DNA of 64,000 bases from Nitrospinaceae bacterium (GTDB lineage Bacteria; Nitrospinota; Nitrospinia; Nitrospinales; Nitrospinaceae): the NCBI GenBank assembly GCA_029261395.1, contig JAJDBJ010000017.1, positions 1 through 64,000 on the forward strand, read 5' to 3'. Positions 2,714 through 36,543 of this stretch are shown here, piece by piece. The notes beneath the pieces are model-generated. The model did not search any database and was not told the DNA's origin. It worked only from the letters and a program-made list of their open reading frames with translations. The position numbers were made by a program, and so were the translations under genes. Numbering within the stretch: the stretch's first letter is position 1; each line of letters begins with the position of its first letter.

Positions 2714-4687
2714 ATGTTTAATTCTGAAGCTAGAAGTATCAAGTGGCTCCCTTGGACACTTGTTCTGGCAGTTACGCTGTTAATTGTTCCGGGCCTGAGC
2801 AGTCAAGCTTTTGCCAAAGAAGTATTTGCGGAACAGGCTTTTGCGGAAGAAGCTTTCGCGAAAGAAGTCCTCGCTCAAGAAGGCGAAGAAGAAGGTGGTG
2901 AGCCCAAGGTTGAATGGGGTCAGGACGTCTTTTATAAGGATTGGGAAGGTAATCCTTTGAAAGGTCCCATCAGTGGATTTCCTGCCCCGGAATTAGGGGA
3001 AGAGGACTACAACAATTATGAGTTTGCGCCGAGCCGCATGTTGCTCTGGGTGGCAAACCAACAGCATCTCTATTTCGGAAGCTTTGTACTCGCGGTTCCG
3101 ATTTTCTGTATGCTCATCGAATTTGTTGGTATCCGCACCAAGGAAAGTGATCCGGTCTTGTCCGCAAAATACGACAAGCTGGCTCAGGACCTGATGAAGG
3201 TCAGCCTGACGGCGTATTCCTGGACTGCGATTCTCGGTGGTATTCTGCTGTTTACGTTTATCACGCTGTTTCCGGGATTCTTCAAATATATGGCCGGTAT
3301 TTTCCGCCCTGTAATGCACGTCTACGCTTTGATGTTTCTGGCCGAAAGTGGCGTCTTGTACGTTTACTATTATGGCTGGGAAAAAATGAAAGACGACCCG
3401 TTCCTGAAGTGGGTCCATTGTAGCCTGGCGGTTCTGCTGAACTTGATCGGAACCATTCTGATGTACCTGGCCAACTCTTGGGCGACTTTCATGCAAGCTC
3501 CCGGCGGAATTGATGAGAAGGGCCAGTTCCTCGGTAACATCTGGCACGTCATTCATTCCACGTTGTGGAATCCGGTTGGTGTGCATCGCATCCTCGGTAA
3601 CATCGTTTTTGGCGGCGGTATCGTTGGAGCGTATGCGGCGTATCATTATCTCACAGCCAAGACGGCTGAAGAGAAAGCTCATTATGACTGGATGTGTTAC
3701 ATCGCGATGTTTATCGCAATTTTCGGTCTCATCCCCCTGCCGTTTGCTGGCTACTGGCTGATGAAGGAAGTGTATGCTTTCCGTCAGCAGATGGGTATTA
3801 CCCTCATGGGCGGCATCATGGCCTGGTTGTTTATCATTCAGGCGGTAATGATTGGTCTCCTGTTCTTTGGAGCCAACTCTTATCTGCATAACTCCATGTC
3901 CCGGATCAAAGGTTCGCACCGGTACATGAAATACGCCAAGTACATGGTTCTTCTGTTGATCGTTTGTTTCACCATGTGGATGACGCCGCACACCATCGTT
4001 ATGACTCCGGCGGAGTTGAAGGACATGGGTGGCGCACAGCATCCGATTGTGGGTCACTTTGGTGTTATGTCTGCCAAGAACACCGCAGTGAACTTGATGA
4101 TCACCACCACCATTCTTTGTTTTCTGTTGTATCAGAGGGCGAACAAGAAGATCAATGTCAGTTGGTCCACGCAGGGAAATGCATGGATTGCCGCTATTTT
4201 CGTTCTGGCGGCGCTCAATATCATCTTCCTCGGCGTGTACGGATACGCCCTGCCAGCCAACCAGCGGGTAGGTCTGTCGGTGCCGCAGGTGACGACGACG
4301 TTGACGACCTTGTTTGCAGGTACGGCCATCAATATTTCCATGTTTAAGGATTCTGATTCGTATGGAGATATCGAATGGGGAACCCAGTCCAAAGTCGCGA
4401 CCTACGCGATTTTTCTGATGGCGATTTCCTTCACCTGGTTGATGGGCCTGATGGGTTACATCCGATCCGCTGTACGCTTGTTCTGGCATGTTACTGAGGT
4501 TGTTCGTGATAACTCGGTAGATGCTTACACGCTGACAATTGGTGAAGCCGGTAAAATGCTGACGTTCAACGCCCTGTTTGTATGGGTACAGTTCGTCATC
4601 GTGTTCTGGGTAGGTAGCCTGACGGCTAAGAAAGCCCCGGCGAAGGCACCTGAAGGTGTTCCCGTACCCGCTCAGCAACAGCAATAA
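2714..4687 (+). CDS. Cytochrome bd-like oxidase subunit I (CydA-like, divergent)
   Basis: A 657-residue polytopic membrane protein with about a dozen hydrophobic helices. It has the general layout of cytochrome bd subunit I: a His early in the first core helix (NQQHLYFG, H119), an acidic helix (H202, LAESG with E211), and later His-containing helices (H281, H291 in GVHRILGN). The quinol-loop motif GRQPW of true CydA is not present, which suggests a different electron donor. An N-terminal hydrophobic segment (residues 14-32, ending SSQAFA) looks like a signal peptide and is followed by a degenerate pentapeptide repeat (about 31-56) and an acidic stretch. A strong AAGGAGG site precedes the ATG. 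It heads a co-directional set with three cytochrome c genes, so it is probably the oxygen-reducing or membrane electron-transfer subunit. The family call is firm only at superfamily level. Confidence 0.8.
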   Translation: MFNSEARSIKWLPWTLVLAVTLLIVPGLSSQAFAKEVFAEQAFAEEAFAKEVLAQEGEEEGGEPKVEWGQDVFYKDWEGNPLKGPISGFPAPELGEEDYNNYEFAPSRMLLWVANQQHLYFGSFVLAVPIFCMLIEFVGIRTKESDPVLSAKYDKLAQDLMKVSLTAYSWTAILGGILLFTFITLFPGFFKYMAGIFRPVMHVYALMFLAESGVLYVYYYGWEKMKDDPFLKWVHCSLAVLLNLIGTILMYLANSWATFMQAPGGIDEKGQFLGNIWHVIHSTLWNPVGVHRILGNIVFGGGIVGAYAAYHYLTAKTAEEKAHYDWMCYIAMFIAIFGLIPLPFAGYWLMKEVYAFRQQMGITLMGGIMAWLFIIQAVMIGLLFFGANSYLHNSMSRIKGSHRYMKYAKYMVLLLIVCFTMWMTPHTIVMTPAELKDMGGAQHPIVGHFGVMSAKNTAVNLMITTTILCFLLYQRANKKINVSWSTQGNAWIAAIFVLAALNIIFLGVYGYALPANQRVGLSVPQVTTTLTTLFAGTAINISMFKDSDSYGDIEWGTQSKVATYAIFLMAISFTWLMGLMGYIRSAVRLFWHVTEVVRDNSVDAYTLTIGEAGKMLTFNALFVWVQFVIVFWVGSLTAKKAPAKAPEGVPVPAQQQQ

Positions 4688-4749
4688 CGTTTATTAGAGT
4701 TACGAATTTAACTTTTTTTAAATATACCAAAGAATGAGAGGAGAGAAGG

Positions 4750-6090
4750 ATGCTTCCTGAACAAGCAGACATCCTGTGGACGTTTGTCACAATCATTTTT
4801 ACGCTGTTCTCCCTATTCGTTTTCGCAAATGTGATTCAGCATTGTCGATCTCGTGAGGGGACCAACACGGTATTGTGGGGATCGGTTTTTGGCGCAGGCT
4901 TCATCGTTAATTTGATGATGACCAATCATATGTTCGATTTGAATCAGCAAGAACAGCTGGGTTTTATTTCCAACCAGGTGTTGGCGGTATTTTTAACCCT
5001 GCTCATTTGGGGGCTGTTTTTCAAAAGTGAGAATATCGAAAGCCAGTCGCCCCCGCTGATTCGGGCCGCTTTTTTCTATTCTACGATTTCCATCCTTCTG
5101 GCGGGGTACACCAACTGGTTGCCTCAGCAAAGAAGTGATCCTCCGCCGAAACCGCAGGCGATTGACGCATCCAGCTTGACCATGGATATCTACGTGGGTA
5201 TGGGTGAGACAATCGTTTTCGGTAAAGAGCGGGTAGCAGGTTCGAAGGCCATTGGTAAGGGGCAGTGTCCTCTCTGTCATACCTTCGATGCGGGTGACAA
5301 CATTGGTCGTTGTCCCAACCTGTTTGGTGTGGAAGAACGTAGCCATACGCGGATCAAGGAGGATCGTTATCTGAATGATCCGATTAAGATCGGCGAAAAG
5401 GATGGAGCTACCGGGATCATAAAGGGTAAGCCGGACCAGGTTCCCGAGGAGTATCGCCGTGCAGATGCAAGTGAACTGACCGGGGAAGACTACCTGCGTG
5501 AATCGTTGATGTGTCCCTCTTGTTACGTGGTTAAGGGGTACGGTAAGGCGGGCGACACCAAGAGCCCGATGCCGGTAATCAACAAGCCACCGATCAGTTT
5601 GGGGCCGGTGGAATTCAACGCGGTTATGGCGTGGCTTCAGGCCAAGGATACACCCGGCGATTTTGCCAATGTTACGATTCCTCTGCCGACAGGTGAAGCA
5701 CCTAAAAAGGAGGAAGAGGAGGAGGGTGATGCGCCAGTATTTGTAACGGGTGCAGAGCCGATTGATGAGATGATCAACACTTTGGGTTGTCCGCTGTGTC
5801 ACACCATTCCGGGTATTGAGGGAGCGGTGGGCGAGTTGGGACCCAAACTGCATGAGAAGATCAATGCTCCGAATCGTATCAAGGATCCAAATTATAAGGG
5901 CAAGGCCAAGACAGGACGCGATTATGTTCGAGAGTCCATTCTTAACCCCAATGCTTATATCGTGTTTAATGAAGCGGAAGGGGAGCCGTATCCGGAGGGC
6001 GTGATGCCTGCCGATTTTGCCAACAAAATATCCGTCAGTGGACTTGATAAATTGGTGGATTTTATTAGTAACACCCAGCCGGAAGGCTAA
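4750..6090 (+). CDS. Membrane-anchored cytochrome c with duplicated heme domain
   Basis: 446 residues: four hydrophobic helices (roughly 8-28, 36-58, 68-92, 103-122), then a large presumably periplasmic part. It has two canonical heme c sites, C173-P-L-C176-H177 and C347-P-L-C350-H351, each followed by a likely Met ligand (SPMPVI; GVMPADF). The two halves look like an internal duplication: YLRESLMCPSCYVV parallels YVRESILNPNAYIV. The first copy thus has an additional C255-P-S-C258-Y, which resembles a heme site but lacks the His. The linker around residues 315-330 is rich in Glu/Lys. A GAGAGGAGAGAAGG ribosome site precedes the ATG, 62 bases after the oxidase gene. Likely delivers electrons from periplasmic donors to the oxidase. 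Confidence 0.85.
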   Translation: MLPEQADILWTFVTIIFTLFSLFVFANVIQHCRSREGTNTVLWGSVFGAGFIVNLMMTNHMFDLNQQEQLGFISNQVLAVFLTLLIWGLFFKSENIESQSPPLIRAAFFYSTISILLAGYTNWLPQQRSDPPPKPQAIDASSLTMDIYVGMGETIVFGKERVAGSKAIGKGQCPLCHTFDAGDNIGRCPNLFGVEERSHTRIKEDRYLNDPIKIGEKDGATGIIKGKPDQVPEEYRRADASELTGEDYLRESLMCPSCYVVKGYGKAGDTKSPMPVINKPPISLGPVEFNAVMAWLQAKDTPGDFANVTIPLPTGEAPKKEEEEEGDAPVFVTGAEPIDEMINTLGCPLCHTIPGIEGAVGELGPKLHEKINAPNRIKDPNYKGKAKTGRDYVRESILNPNAYIVFNEAEGEPYPEGVMPADFANKISVSGLDKLVDFISNTQPEG

Positions 6091-6109
6091 CCCAGGAGGG
6101 ATTTGAGGG

Positions 6110-7084
6110 ATGAACAATGTAGTGAAAGGAATACTCTTATACGTGGTCGGTTGGGCCGCTTTCCACTATGGTTTGTTTGACTTGATGAAACCTAAGGAAT
6201 TTTCCTGGATAGCTAACCGATACGTTTACTTTCTACTGTTTGTATTTTATTGCATAGGTTTCAACCTCGTGTTGAAGCTGAAACCCCCGATCTCCTTGAA
6301 CGGCTTGGTCGTTTGGTTGTTGGGACTGTACTTCTATACGAATATTTTGTATCCGCCGGTTCCGTGGACTCTGCTCATCACTTATATGATGCTGTGGACT
6401 ATTGGTACCTTCCTGTATATTTCTCAGGATCCGGTCACCTTCGCGGAATTTAGAAAACCGATTGTCAAGACAGTGATCGGCGAATACAAAATTGCTCGTT
6501 ATATAGTCTTTATTGCTTTGCCTTTGTTGGTGGGTTTTGGGACTTACAAGTCTCTTGAGCCTAAGTTTGAGGAGCCGGTTGAGTTGCGTACAGTTCACCC
6601 GGCACCACCGGCGACCACCAAGGTGCATGGAAAGAGCTACAAGTTGGAAGGATTGCAGAATCCTTTTCGAACGGATGAGCAGGACAATTATAAAGACAGC
6701 TTTCCATTCCTTGATGCCGACAAGCAGGAGTATATGAAGTCGGTTACAGAGGGTGGGACGATTTTCTTTCAGAATTGTCATTACTGCCACGGTGACCAGT
6801 TGAACGGACAGGGGATGTTCTCCCACGTGTTCAACCCGACCCCGGCAAACTTCGTTGATCCTGGAACGATCGCCATGTTGCGCGAGTCTTTCCTGTTCTG
6901 GCGGGTTTCCAAGGGCGGACCTGGGTTGCCAAATGAATCGACTCCGTGGTCCTCGGCGATGCCGCCTTGGGAAGAACATTTGAAAACGGAGGAAATCTGG
7001 AAGGTCATCTTGTTTGAGTACTGGTATACCGGGTGGCATCCACGAACCTTCGATGAAGAGTCTTCTTCAGGTGGTGGGGAATAA
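6110..7084 (+). CDS. Membrane-bound monoheme cytochrome c
   Basis: 324 residues with about five hydrophobic helices in the first 145 residues, then a class I cytochrome c domain with C223-H-Y-C226-H227 and a C-terminal Met ligand in SAMPPWEEHL, followed by the usual amphipathic helix (EEIWKVILFEYW). The fold arrangement recalls CcoP-like or photosynthetic-type membrane cytochromes, but no closer family is certain. It begins 20 bases after the previous gene behind an AGGAGGGA sequence and ends three bases before an in-frame upstream ATG of the next gene, so the cluster is surely one transcription unit. Probable role: electron relay within the oxidase complex. Confidence 0.82.
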   Translation: MNNVVKGILLYVVGWAAFHYGLFDLMKPKEFSWIANRYVYFLLFVFYCIGFNLVLKLKPPISLNGLVVWLLGLYFYTNILYPPVPWTLLITYMMLWTIGTFLYISQDPVTFAEFRKPIVKTVIGEYKIARYIVFIALPLLVGFGTYKSLEPKFEEPVELRTVHPAPPATTKVHGKSYKLEGLQNPFRTDEQDNYKDSFPFLDADKQEYMKSVTEGGTIFFQNCHYCHGDQLNGQGMFSHVFNPTPANFVDPGTIAMLRESFLFWRVSKGGPGLPNESTPWSSAMPPWEEHLKTEEIWKVILFEYWYTGWHPRTFDEESSSGGGE

Positions 7085-7135
7085 TCAATGAATCCAACCA
7101 TTTCATTTATGAAATATTTAAATAAAGAGGGAGCT

Positions 7136-8857
7136 ATGCTAACGGAGCCTAGAAAAAAAGTAAGGCAATTCCTGGTCGCTTTGGTGATGGTCCTGATCGT
7201 GGGGTTACCATCGGTTGTTCTGGCGCAGGAAGCGAAAAGGCCGGATCCGGTTCTGAAGGATAAACTGGAACTCGGTAAAAAGACGTATTTCAAACGTTGT
7301 GTCTGGTGCCACGGCGTTGAAGGCGGCGGCGACGGTCCTTCTGCTGATCGACTGTTCACACGCCCCAGAAACTTTATTCAGGGTACCTTTAAAATTCGCT
7401 GGACGGATTCGGGTGAGCTTCCGTTGGATCGGAACCTGATCGATACCGTCAAAAACGGTTTGCCGGGATCAGCGATGCCGGCTTGGAGTAACGTCCTGAG
7501 TGAGGATGAAATCGTATCCGTAGTTCAGTTCGTTAAAACTCTGGTTCAAGACCGGGATTTTGAGGACGAGGATGAAGAAGTGTTCATTCAGGATTTTGGT
7601 AAGAATCCCTGGGGAACGACTGGACCGTATCACTTGGGAATTCCCCAAGCAGATATCGATGCGGGAAAAGAAGTTTTCCTGAAGAATAAATGTTTTGAGT
7701 GTCATGGCGGCGAAGGCCGAGGTGACGGTAACCCAACGATGAAGGATGACTGGGGTTTTCCGATTTTCGCGGCAGACTGGCAGCAATGCTGGAACTTCCG
7801 TGGTAGTCGACGGAATCATTATGATCCTTTCAACGTTGTTCGGACGGTATCAACCGGTATGAACGGTACACCCATGCCGAACTTCAAGGACAAGATCACG
7901 GTTGAAGATCGATGGAAGCTGGCGGCATTCGTCAACTCCCTGTGTCCGCGGAAGAAGATTGATAAGTTGGCGAGTAAACCGATCAATGACTTCCTGATTA
8001 AGTCCAAGTTCACTAAAGGTCCGATTTCAACGGATTTCAACGATCCGATGTGGCAGGCTCCAGATGATGACTTTACCATTAAGTCAAGGCCGGAAGGATT
8101 CACCGGTAAGAAAAATCAGCGTTGGCATTATGTTGCTCTCGCTGGTCAGATTACCCGTGGTGATCGGAACTTCAAACCTAAAGTAGATAACCTGTGGGTT
8201 ATGTCTAACTGGTCTGAAGAAGAAAATGCGGTCTACTATCTGGTTGAATATCACAACCGGTTTCTATCAATAGATCCAGCGTTTCCGGATGCTGTAGCAA
8301 TGCAGTGGCCGGGGCAGTTGGGGGATCTGTATGGTGCAGAAAAGCCGTACTTTATTTACGGTGATGCCAAGAAGCCTGTGGATGTTTGGAAGGCCAATTT
8401 TTTGGTCAAGGATTACAATGACACCAACGCACCGAATCCTAATGGATATGATCTGGATGTGTCTGTTAAGGAATTTGTGGGTAGAGGGTTTGATGCTATT
8501 TCTGATAAGGAAACCCCCGGTGGTGTTACGGTTGTGAACTCCAAGTATCATCAAGGTCGAGTGAAAATCATGTTCAAGCGTTCTCTCACAACTGAGAACC
8601 CGGACAAGACCGATGTTCAGATTCCGGTTAAGGCTTTTATTCCGGTATCATTCATGCAGTGGTCGGGCTGGGATAAAGAACATGATGAACACATGGCTAT
8701 TTCTACCTGGTGTTACACGATTCTTGAGCCTGATAATCCTGCCTCCATGGTGTACATGCCTCCGATTTTGGGTGTGGCATTCTTTGGATTCCAAATGTGG
8801 TTGGTATGGATGACCAAGCGTACTCGTAAGATGGCTGCAGAGGGTAAAGTTAAATAA
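7136..8857 (+). CDS. Diheme cytochrome c fused to ethylbenzene dehydrogenase-like (NxrC/DdhC-type) heme domain
   Basis: 573 residues. The start at 7136 gives a textbook signal peptide (MLTEPRKK..., hydrophobic core, cleavage after VLAQ) behind AAGAGGGAG; an in-frame ATG at 7088 would bury it. Two cytochrome c domains follow: C55-V-W-C58-H59 and C186-F-E-C189-H190, each with a Met-Pro ligand (GSAMPAW; GTPMPNF). Residues about 275-530 resemble the EB_dh domain of heme-b gamma subunits of DMSO-reductase-type enzymes (WHYVALAGQITRGD, DAVAMQWPG). A C-terminal membrane helix lies about 535-558. Such gamma subunits include those of nitrite oxidoreductase, ethylbenzene and selenate dehydrogenases. 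No molybdenum catalytic subunit is nearby. It is the last gene of the oxidase operon and is followed by an intrinsic terminator. Confidence 0.82.
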   Translation: MLTEPRKKVRQFLVALVMVLIVGLPSVVLAQEAKRPDPVLKDKLELGKKTYFKRCVWCHGVEGGGDGPSADRLFTRPRNFIQGTFKIRWTDSGELPLDRNLIDTVKNGLPGSAMPAWSNVLSEDEIVSVVQFVKTLVQDRDFEDEDEEVFIQDFGKNPWGTTGPYHLGIPQADIDAGKEVFLKNKCFECHGGEGRGDGNPTMKDDWGFPIFAADWQQCWNFRGSRRNHYDPFNVVRTVSTGMNGTPMPNFKDKITVEDRWKLAAFVNSLCPRKKIDKLASKPINDFLIKSKFTKGPISTDFNDPMWQAPDDDFTIKSRPEGFTGKKNQRWHYVALAGQITRGDRNFKPKVDNLWVMSNWSEEENAVYYLVEYHNRFLSIDPAFPDAVAMQWPGQLGDLYGAEKPYFIYGDAKKPVDVWKANFLVKDYNDTNAPNPNGYDLDVSVKEFVGRGFDAISDKETPGGVTVVNSKYHQGRVKIMFKRSLTTENPDKTDVQIPVKAFIPVSFMQWSGWDKEHDEHMAISTWCYTILEPDNPASMVYMPPILGVAFFGFQMWLVWMTKRTRKMAAEGKVK

Positions 8858-8888
8858 TCCTCTAAAGTTGTTGCACAACTAGCTATAG

Positions 8889-8922
8889 AAAAAGCCCGTC
8901 CAGTTTGGACGGGCTTTTTTTT
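8889..8922 (+). terminator. Intrinsic terminator of the oxidase operon
   Basis: GCCCGTCC (8894-8901), AGTTT loop and GGACGGGC (8907-8914) followed by eight T residues; 32 bases after the stop of the last cytochrome gene. Confidence 0.93.
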
Positions 8923-34137: not shown

Positions 34138-36543
34138 ATGAGTGAAAGCAAGGATATACCGATTTTAAGATCGGAAGGGGAGCTCCCGGAGGTACAGGTT
34201 CGGCCGGAGGAATCACCTGAGTGGGTTATCGCCACCTATCGCAAGCACCGACTCGTGCAAATCACGGCAGAGTTGAATACTACTCTCGGCAAAGGCCGGG
34301 GAGAAGAGGTTTATATCGAACCGGTTTTGCTCGATATGAACCTGATTGTGCATCGGCAGAGCCTCCAGGAACAGGTATTTCATAATCCCCGCGAAGTCAC
34401 CGAAAACCTTCTCGACGTCCAAACCTCGAAGGTCATGCTGGAAGCGGATTCCGGTATGGGGAAAACCACCTTTCTCCAGGTTTATCTGGAGCGGCTTCTG
34501 CAGGCGGAAGCCACTCGCGAATATCCCATGCCGGTTTACTTTGACCTGTCGCAATTGCCGGAGGGTAGCGGGTTTCGTGAGTTTTATCCAGAGCTGTACC
34601 GGCAGGTGATGGCCGTGGTTCTCCTGGAGCGGGAGGAACAGCCGGATTTGGAAATTCAGGAGTCCCTGTTGGAACGCACCGTCAATCGTCTGGTGTTGAC
34701 CGGGCAGATTCTCTTTTTGCTCGACGGGTTTGATCAACTCATACCGGAAGACCGGTTCCAGATTTATTTTGACGTGGTGGTCGATGGCGACGCCTTGCGT
34801 GATAATTTTGTGATGATCGTCACCCGGCCTGTCGGATTCGGTCCCTTCGCCACCACTTCCATCGTCAAGCGGGGGCAGGACTCGATGTTTCGTACTGCCA
34901 TCCAACCCGTCAGTGACATACAGCGAAGACACTACTTACCCGCGGCCTCGATCAAACCCCAAGCTGAAAAGTTCCAGTTGTTTTATCCGGAGCTGTTTCA
35001 GAATCCCCTTCTATTAAAAATGATCCGGTCTCTGGCGGAGAGTGAAAAACTCGAAGGCGTCACTTCGCGGACACACCTTTACCGTGCGTGGATCGATGAG
35101 GTGTTTGCGGACAAGGAGTCGCCGGATGCGGAGACTCAGGAATGTCTGAAGACTCTGGAAGACATCTCCCTGCAATTGGTGCGGGAAGGCCATCGGCAAC
35201 GCCAGCAGGATGCGGAAACGGGGTTTGAATTGAAGCTATTTGAGGACCGTGGCGCGCATCTCAAAAAACTCTATGCCGACGGCCAAGTGTGCGCTCCCTT
35301 TGACCGGTTGATCCAATGGACCCCCACGCGCTGGCAGTTTCGTCATCCCTCGTTTCAGGAATACTTTGCGGGACGGGCGTTGGCCCGGGATGCTGAGTGG
35401 GAACCGGTGTTGCGGGAACACGGCCGCGACGGTACCTGGCAAAACCTGTTTCAATTTTTCGCCGGCACGACTTCTGTTGCTCCCGATAGCCTGATCGATA
35501 TTCTTTTGGAGGAAGGCGCGTTGTTCCTGGCGGGGCATGTGTTGGCGGAAGTGGATGAGGTGTCCGAAAACCGCCGCTTGATCGTCGGTCAGTTATTGAA
35601 GTATCAGTGTCCCGAAGCTGAACCGCAGTTTTCGAAAAACCGGTTGGTGCGGCTGGCAACGGTTTTGGATCAAAATGACCGCGACGCTCTGCAGACGTTG
35701 ACCTGCAATCTCCTCAAGCGGGAGAAGCGCGACTCCCGAATTCTTTATGGCGTACTCGATCTATTGCTGGCTCTCCATAAAATCGACTGGAAAGAGGTCA
35801 TCGACAATCAGAATTTTGAAGCCGTACTGGCACTGCCCGACCTTCAGGAATTTTTGAATGAACATGAGGATTCAAAAACGGTCAGCACCGCAGTGATTAA
35901 AAAATGGACGGAGATGGTGACCGTGCCGGCGGGAAAATTTATTTATCAGGATGAAAAAGACGAAGAAGACCAGATCGAGATGAAAGAATTTTCGATCATG
36001 AAATACCTCACCACCAACGAGTTGTACCAGCAGTTCGATCCTCGGTTCCAGCACCGTTTTCCCAAGTACTCCTGGAGCAAGGACCAACCGGTCGTCGGCA
36101 TCAACTATTACGAGGCCACGGTATTTGCGCTGTGGTTGGGATTGCGGCTTCCGACTGAAAAGGAGTGGGAGAAGACCTCGCGTGGAATCGATGGCCGCGA
36201 TTATCCCTGGGGAGAAGCCATGGGGTACCAGACCGGATTCTGCAACACCGCCGACTTTGTGGTCGGTCACACCAACGCAGTGACAGAATTTGAGGAAGGC
36301 ATCTCCCCCTACGGCTGTTTTGATATGGCGGGCAATGCCTGGGAATGGTGCGTTCAATTATTTTCCTCCCAATTTACCACCCAGAAAATCGTCCGCGGAG
36401 GATCCTGGCTCAATTATATGGTGAATGCCAAATGCCACTTCCGAAACTCCTTTGACCCTGCCGAAAGACACCCCGGAGTGAGCGTCCGGTGCACCACCCT
36501 GCCTCTGGTCGAAGTGGAAAAAGAGGACGAGGACGATTTCTGA
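34138..36543 (+). CDS. NACHT-type STAND ATPase with C-terminal FGE/SUMF1-like (C-type-lectin-fold) domain
   Basis: 801 residues. After a charged N-terminus comes a NACHT NTPase: Walker A G106-M-G108-K109-T110-T111 in MLEADSGMGKTTFLQVYL and Walker B with D196 and D199 in LFLLDGFDQL. A helical middle (about 260-590) has no clear repeats; FRHPSFQEYFAGRALA is typical of NACHT winged-helix/HETHS regions. The C-terminal domain (about 593-795) resembles formylglycine-generating enzyme (VTVPAGKF, RLPTEKEWEKTSRG, DMAGNAWEW, RGGSW). The catalytic Cys positions after RGGSW are not conserved (N759, A764), so it is likely a binding or sensor fold. Candidate defence or signalling protein; no partner gene is obvious. 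Confidence 0.82.
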   Translation: MSESKDIPILRSEGELPEVQVRPEESPEWVIATYRKHRLVQITAELNTTLGKGRGEEVYIEPVLLDMNLIVHRQSLQEQVFHNPREVTENLLDVQTSKVMLEADSGMGKTTFLQVYLERLLQAEATREYPMPVYFDLSQLPEGSGFREFYPELYRQVMAVVLLEREEQPDLEIQESLLERTVNRLVLTGQILFLLDGFDQLIPEDRFQIYFDVVVDGDALRDNFVMIVTRPVGFGPFATTSIVKRGQDSMFRTAIQPVSDIQRRHYLPAASIKPQAEKFQLFYPELFQNPLLLKMIRSLAESEKLEGVTSRTHLYRAWIDEVFADKESPDAETQECLKTLEDISLQLVREGHRQRQQDAETGFELKLFEDRGAHLKKLYADGQVCAPFDRLIQWTPTRWQFRHPSFQEYFAGRALARDAEWEPVLREHGRDGTWQNLFQFFAGTTSVAPDSLIDILLEEGALFLAGHVLAEVDEVSENRRLIVGQLLKYQCPEAEPQFSKNRLVRLATVLDQNDRDALQTLTCNLLKREKRDSRILYGVLDLLLALHKIDWKEVIDNQNFEAVLALPDLQEFLNEHEDSKTVSTAVIKKWTEMVTVPAGKFIYQDEKDEEDQIEMKEFSIMKYLTTNELYQQFDPRFQHRFPKYSWSKDQPVVGINYYEATVFALWLGLRLPTEKEWEKTSRGIDGRDYPWGEAMGYQTGFCNTADFVVGHTNAVTEFEEGISPYGCFDMAGNAWEWCVQLFSSQFTTQKIVRGGSWLNYMVNAKCHFRNSFDPAERHPGVSVRCTTLPLVEVEKEDEDDF

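Follow-up and report, generated by a model that had tools for sequence, protein, structure and literature searches.

Nitrospinota have been described as the most abundant nitrite oxidisers known from the sea (PMC10839748), yet the enzyme that reduces oxygen has still to be established for the majority of their genomes. Two cultured Nitrospinae were found without heme-copper oxidases, and their route to oxygen was described as unclear (PMC8026999). Which protein, then, could deliver electrons to oxygen in these bacteria? The question is raised by a four-gene block in the Nitrospinaceae DNA analysed here (the window: 64,000 nucleotides of contig C17, from a 2.94-Mb host genome of 97% completeness). 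The block encodes: a bd-like protein homologous to CydA (protein 1); two membrane cytochromes c (proteins 2 and 3); and a diheme protein with a domain like NxrC, a subunit of nitrite oxidoreductase (NXR) (protein 4). It is already published, as the bd-like oxidase/alternative-NxrC cluster of Nitrospina, Nitrospira and anammox bacteria. The present analysis adds how widely the block is conserved, its presence in relatives in which no NXR is detectable, a count of oxygen reductases by elimination, a correction of the proposed ligands, and the finding that two histidines were lost in a coupled way. The operon may encode a cytochrome c:O2 reductase of the OR-N group, probably together with a second bd-like protein (CydA'), a proposal drawn from sequence for which we consider the balance even.

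Results

The bd-like protein lacks the quinol loop

Protein 1 matches the Pfam family Cyt_bd_oxida_I (PF01654, E=4e-20), and the match is limited to profile positions 2-239 of 418. A profile of its relatives likewise aligns to the N-terminal half of CydA chains (9r2g, 2e-13; 5doq, 1e-9; 6rko, 9e-8), a search that succeeded where a single-sequence search of the PDB with protein 1 gave no match. The AlphaFold (AF2) model, with a predicted local distance difference score (pLDDT) of 74 and a predicted template-modelling score (pTM) of 0.74, has 14 long helices beyond the signal region. When this model is compared with the PDB by Foldseek, all ten matches below E=0.001 are bd-oxidase subunit I; no heme-copper oxidase is among the significant matches, and Pfam gives no PF00115 match. 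Because merely a two-residue turn separates helices six and seven of the model, protein 1 is without a Q-loop.

The sequence-only reading of this locus had described a divergent CydA-like protein without the GRQPW quinol motif. Both parts of that description hold, as the string GRQPW is absent from the protein 1 sequence, and a normal Q-loop, looked for in the alignment as well as in the model, appears in neither. No CydB family match was found by Pfam among the four operon proteins.

A bd-type ligand set is kept and a second set is partly lost

Ligands were compared across 30 aligned bd-like proteins of both paralogue types, that of the window and that of CydA'. H118, Y204, H235, H291 and H592 are invariant in all 30, and E211 and E352 each vary once. 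These seven residues are identical in the 11 Nitrospinales sequences compared and in nearly all others. The position of E. coli CydA E99 is occupied by the invariant tyrosine Y204. Around CydA H186 the alignment is offset by 4 residues between hits, hence the equivalence of H291 is only probable. The heme ligands named earlier, H119, H202, E211 and H281, stand in part: the first (really residue 118) and E211 are conserved, and the helix-5 histidine is H291. H202 and H281 are conserved within Nitrospinales only, being mostly I/W/Y and R/N/L, respectively, in other Nitrospinota.

A second, heme-copper-like set, H426/H442/H443/H590, is complete in 11 of the 15 window-type proteins from outside Nitrospinales, with histidine at 442 in 12/15 and at 590 in 11/15. 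In Nitrospinales, the same positions read H, Q, H and F in 47/47 sequences. The heme-copper-like set proposed for Nitrospira Nide0901 is thus incomplete in protein 1, by a residue mapping that we infer here. Gln and Phe substitutions have been reported in the bd-like protein (PMC8026999); Q442 and F590 are taken as these changes, since they are the sole positions at which His is usual elsewhere and Gln or Phe is found here.

A change at 442 goes with one at 590. In the other Q442 clade (L104, L114, L121) residue 590 is N or D, the coupled change is present in at least two lineages, and the sole exception to the pairing is L102, with H442 and Y590. Such coupled loss suggests from sequence that the two residues once served one site. 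The identity of protein 1 as a heme-copper oxidase was considered and rejected on three grounds: the lack of a PF00115 match; Foldseek matches that, where significant, are all bd subunits; and the incomplete ligand set (Q442, F590).

A second bd-like protein in the same genome

The host genome holds one further, more distant bd-like relative, of about 33% identity. Its gene is split over the ends of contigs C61 and C42, which share a 38-bp exact overlap (L055 9271-10290, L054 9599-10747). In four other genomes an intact CydA' gene lies at the same place and is followed by the same diheme cytochrome c gene. In the 30-protein comparison CydA' has the bd set and is without the 426/442/443/590 set, and the window and CydA' types form separate clades in the tree (support 100/100). 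Oxidation of cytochrome c has been proposed for OR-N enzymes, in which OR-N1 and OR-N2 would together make up CydAA' (PMC10839748).

The cytochrome c and NxrC-like subunits

Five CxxCH motifs are spread over proteins 2, 3 and 4 (counts 2/1/2). Together with the membrane helices and the profile matches to NxrC and EbdC, they agree with what the sequence had first suggested: two membrane cytochromes c and a diheme EB_dh protein. The first half of protein 4 matches the Kuenenia diheme cytochrome Kustc0458 (6h5l_B, 3e-72), and the second half matches Kuenenia NxrC (7b04_C, 6e-28) and EbdC (2ivf_C, 7e-17). Foldseek with the AlphaFold model of protein 4 agrees with these profile matches (1e-16, 7e-12, 4e-10). 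By Pfam the EB_dh match has E=0.012 and falls short of the cut-off. The features of alt_NxrC, namely the EB_dh/NxrC-like domain, two CxxCH motifs and a membrane helix, are all present.

The heme b of the EbdC type is ligated by Met and Lys (PMC8840923). The Met common to NxrC and EbdC, taken as the ligand, is Gln (Q406) in protein 4, and Gln, Glu or Tyr in 20 other sequences. The common Lys is Asn (N437), or Lys if a two-residue gap is allowed. In two loci (L113 5194-6735, L116 4921-6435) the protein 4 homologues are arranged differently, with the EB_dh domain first and two cytochrome c domains beyond the membrane helix. Protein 2 also contains a CPSC motif (residues 255-258, window 5512-5523) without a heme-c His, near the distal Met loop; both of its Cys are kept in 45/47 relatives.

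The cluster is conserved in relatives without detectable NxrA

Conservation was surveyed in 47 loci in named genomes. The four-gene order is complete in 35, truncated by a contig end in 11, and interrupted in one; it thus holds in 35 of the 36 relatives with a sufficiently long contig, and the co-occurrence of the four genes extends nearly throughout the order. In the interrupted locus (L047 10001-12568), the break in gene 2 follows residue 174, and ~30 kb away there is a partial homologue of gene 4. Outside Nitrospinales, the same gene order is found in L106, L107, L112, L104 and L114, and up to the contig edge in L109, L111, L115, L117 and L119. L102, from G001, is a rearranged variant.

Two genomes with clusters, G001 (96% complete) and G073 (86%), contain no NxrA-sized match. 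The module is not nitrite-specific, because it is kept in these relatives without detectable NxrA, and its presence should not be used as a marker of nitrite oxidation. In L109 the cluster is preceded by genes of a different Mo enzyme, one like DMSO reductase II, whose neighbours are Fe-S-like, cytochrome c and EB_dh-like. More widely, bd-like genes of other Nitrospinota orders adjoin varied molybdopterin enzymes (L109 1-5525, L118 1413-6943, L108 8951-14350), the partners of which are Fe-S-like, cytochrome c or EB_dh-like. Taken together, this suggests that the bd-like cluster is a general periplasmic electron-input module. Paralogous clusters in the two genomes without detectable NxrA, L103 (G001:C12 1864-10258) and L113 (G073:C94 634-6735), encode bd-like proteins with a fused C-terminal cytochrome c. 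They also encode complex I/Mrp antiporter subunits (PF00361), two in L103 and one in L113, and homologues of proteins 3 and 4.

The host itself is very probably a nitrite oxidiser whose nxr is merely broken in the assembly. Two NxrA N-termini, with 94-96% identity to a relative's NxrA, lie at contig ends (L127 1-564, L128 1-513) and both end at the same residue; these ends fit a collapsed repeat, and an absence of NXR from the window organism was considered and rejected on this ground. Three further Mo-enzyme matches in the host genome are NuoG/FdhA-like by eye.

Few genomes encode a canonical oxygen reductase

The inventory of oxidases covers 28 Nitrospinales genomes of at least 90% completeness. 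A full-length heme-copper oxidase frame is present in five (G000, G004, G016, G023, G028) and canonical CydA in four (G010, G012, G016, G028), jointly seven genomes; G009 has no more than a short CydA fragment with stops. Neither a full-length heme-copper oxidase nor a canonical CydA is found in 20-21 of the 28. The window-type gene is present in 28/28, and many of these genomes have a full-length NxrA. In G047, which is one contig, there are two full NxrA frames, both bd-like genes and neither canonical oxidase. PF00115 matches elsewhere are weak, covering about one third of the profile or less. One that was examined (G001, L126 3872-4660) is a short COX1-like/DUF1858 protein; many Nitrospinota have weak matches of comparable extent, which could be taken for an oxidase in error.

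The incompleteness of metagenome-assembled genomes (MAGs) could explain single absences but hardly 20. Because 20-21 genomes are without canonical oxidases, the two bd-like proteins are the obvious candidates for oxygen reduction. The statement made for two cultures (PMC8026999) is hereby extended to 20-21 near-complete genomes, and the question is narrowed: most of them hold just two bd-like oxygen-reductase candidates, one of which has partly lost its heme-copper-like ligands.

The locus

The four open reading frames lie on the same strand, separated by 62, 19 and 3 bases. Their order is as first described, and with the hairpin that follows them the genes look like one transcription unit (Table 1). 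Shuffled sequence contains more promoter-like sites than the surroundings of the operon, and such sites were therefore given no weight. Upstream lies a histidinol-dehydrogenase-like gene (translation read by eye) and downstream, convergent, a threonine-aldolase-like gene. The closest matches of the window are Nitrospinaceae MAGs, with 93% identity in the bd-like protein. A scan of viral contigs turned up no relative, and the sole match in a plasmid search was a weak Streptomyces CydA. Elsewhere, the window encodes an 801-aa protein (34138-36543) with a NACHT-type NTPase and a C-terminal FGE-sulfatase domain.

Table 1. Features of the four-gene unit, in window coordinates.
Feature	Coordinates	Strand	Basis
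Protein 1: bd-like oxidase subunit, CydA homologue, OR-N type, 657 aa; signal-like N-terminus and 14 predicted membrane helices, no Q-loop	2714..4687	+	PF01654, AF2 model, Foldseek
H118 codon: equivalent of E. coli CydA H19 (bd-type heme ligand)	3065..3067	+	Profile alignment to 6rko_A; 30/30 bd-like proteins
E211 codon: equivalent of E. coli CydA E107	3344..3346	+	Profile alignment; bd-like comparison
H291 codon: helix-5 histidine, probable equivalent of CydA H186 (b558 ligand)	3584..3586	+	Invariant 30/30
Q442-H443 codons: Gln at first His of the HH pair of other Nitrospinota	4037..4042	+	Q in 47/47 Nitrospinales
F590-W591-H592 codons: Phe at first His of the HxH motif of other Nitrospinota	4481..4489	+	F in 47/47 Nitrospinales
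Protein 2: membrane-anchored cytochrome c, 446 aa; two CxxCH (residues 173, 347), N-terminal anchor	4750..6090	+	Motif scan, Pfam
Protein 3: membrane cytochrome c, 324 aa; one CxxCH (residue 223), membrane helices, conserved H163 and M284	6110..7084	+	PF13442
Protein 4: alternative NxrC; signal region, two cytochrome c domains (CxxCH 71, 202), EB_dh/NxrC-like domain ~300-545, C-terminal membrane helix	7088..8857	+	Profiles, Foldseek
Intrinsic terminator-like hairpin: 16-bp stem and T-run	8887..8921	+	3' end of four-gene unit

Discussion

Proposed electron route

If the operon encodes a cytochrome c:O2 reductase, the route likely involves: entry of periplasmic electrons, here from nitrite oxidoreductase, at the diheme/NxrC-like subunit; passage across the c-hemes of the two membrane cytochromes; and arrival at putative hemes of the CydA-like subunit, in the region of H118, E211, H291 and E352. 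The CydA-like subunit would most likely partner CydA', which is encoded elsewhere in the genome in a two-gene unit together with a diheme cytochrome c, in an enzyme without a quinol site. For Nitrospinales, the bd-type heme site is where oxygen would have to react, as two of the four heme-copper-like ligands are gone from the C-terminal half. An oxidase fed by cytochrome c, possibly in a chain from nitrite or another high-potential donor, was the electron route first offered for this locus. Feeding by cytochrome c fits the missing Q-loop, the missing GRQPW and the five c-heme motifs, and was already proposed for the bd-like family (PMC8026999, PMC10839748); the link to nitrite is unnecessary, as clusters occur in relatives without detectable NxrA. 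In Nitrospira, transcripts of the homologous cluster are among the 40 strongest (PMC6606698).

A narrower proposal is that the Nitrospinales bd-like pair reduces oxygen at the bd-type heme site alone, with neither a quinol site nor a full copper-like site, and that most of these marine nitrite oxidisers have no other terminal oxidase; this we put forward tentatively, as somewhat doubtful. Several points weigh against an oxygen-reducing role. No activity or structure has been published, as far as was found, for any family member. The putative oxidase type carries a pair of His, at 442 and 590, which protein 1 does not have, and the two bd-like genes are not adjacent in the genome. The pair is not needed as the only oxidase of this host, since its genome encodes a single-gene fused cbb3-type oxidase of about 949 aa, with subunit I and several c-heme motifs (L056); N. 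gracilis resembles it in having a fused cbb3-type enzyme. A search for alternative oxidase recovered none of its controls, hence says nothing on that enzyme.

Alternative roles

A homologous cluster is retained by anammox bacteria, which are strict anaerobes (PMC3578206), and this speaks for some function besides the reduction of oxygen. One possibility would be reverse electron transport resembling complex III, in which electrons from nitrite would pass, via NXR, cytochrome c or the NxrC-like subunit, to the quinone pool at the expense of the proton motive force. Such a role has been put forward both for this cluster in N. gracilis and for the Nitrospira bd-like_3 cluster (PMC3578206, PMC6606698). 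The antiporter subunits of L103 and L113 would suit uphill transfer driven in this way, and the lost heme-copper-like ligands of Nitrospinales also favour it. However, no quinone site is recognisable, Q-loop and GRQPW both being absent, and in 20-21 of the 28 near-complete genomes oxygen reduction would fall to CydA' alone or to some enzyme not yet recognised. Reverse transport is considered unlikely here. The converse use of quinone, by a canonical quinol-oxidising cytochrome bd with unusual accessory cytochromes, is scarcely credible: CydA homology speaks for it, but covers the N-terminal half only, and this identity was rejected because the Q-loop, GRQPW and a neighbouring CydB are all missing.

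The bd-like subunit could also be non-catalytic, with the complex anchoring NXR and relaying electrons to soluble cytochrome c for another oxidase (cbb3 here, CydA' elsewhere). An anchor role has been suggested (PMC6606698), and an NxrC-like domain fused to two c-hemes would make a suitable docking module. The loss of H442 and H590 as a pair, and the altered look of the heme-b positions (Met to Q406; Lys to N437 or shifted), are consistent with such a role. Retention of all seven bd-type residues in the 11 Nitrospinales sequences compared, and in nearly all others, is not, nor is the presence of the module in relatives without detectable NxrA, and we regard this role as improbable.

Comparison with known systems

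The cluster has been described in Nitrospina gracilis, Nitrospira (bd-like_3 with alt_NxrC_2) and Kuenenia (PMC3578206, PMC6606698, PMC8026999), and as highly conserved in synteny. The window cluster shares with it the same four kinds of component, a 14-helix bd-like protein and the Gln/Phe substitutions; it is orthologous, comes from a MAG of the same order that has not been characterised, and shows no essential difference. The bd-like protein of N. gracilis, with 14 helices, helices in place of the Q-loop and no quinol residues (PMC3578206), agrees with protein 1. The cytochromes differ in motif count, a diheme and a triheme cytochrome c being given in PMC8026999, as against two CxxCH and one CxxCH here.

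Compared with canonical cytochrome bd (E. coli CydAB, 6rko), protein 1 shares the N-terminal fold, equivalents of H19 and E107 and probably of H186 and E445. It differs in having Tyr at E99 and additional C-terminal helices, and in lacking the Q-loop, GRQPW and CydB. The diheme half of protein 4 is like Kustc0458 (6h5l; 38% identity in the structural alignment), which in Kuenenia is the partner of an HAO-like enzyme, whereas in protein 4 this half is fused to the NxrC-like domain. That domain has the EB_dh beta-sandwich in common with the gamma subunits NxrC (7b04) and EbdC (2ivf). Unlike them, it is fused to two c-hemes and a membrane helix, and the heme-b Met is absent and the Lys absent or shifted.

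The TO_1/TO_2 complexes of Ca. Manganitrophaceae (PMC9040806) also combine a bd-like protein with a periplasmic cytochrome. TO_2 has two MrpD-like ion-pump subunits, and the window cluster has no antiporter subunits. TO_2 was called restricted to Ca. Manganitrophaceae (PMC9040806), yet the paralogous clusters L103 and L113 resemble TO_2 with its Mrp-like pumps and are in Nitrospinota. The OR-N family of cytochrome bd-type O2 reductases, with CydAA' (PMC10839748, citing Murali et al. 2021), has in common with the window a CydA-like protein without a quinol site, a link to cytochrome c and two divergent CydA-type proteins per genome. By its sequence, the window bd-like protein is a member of this published, cytochrome c-linked group.

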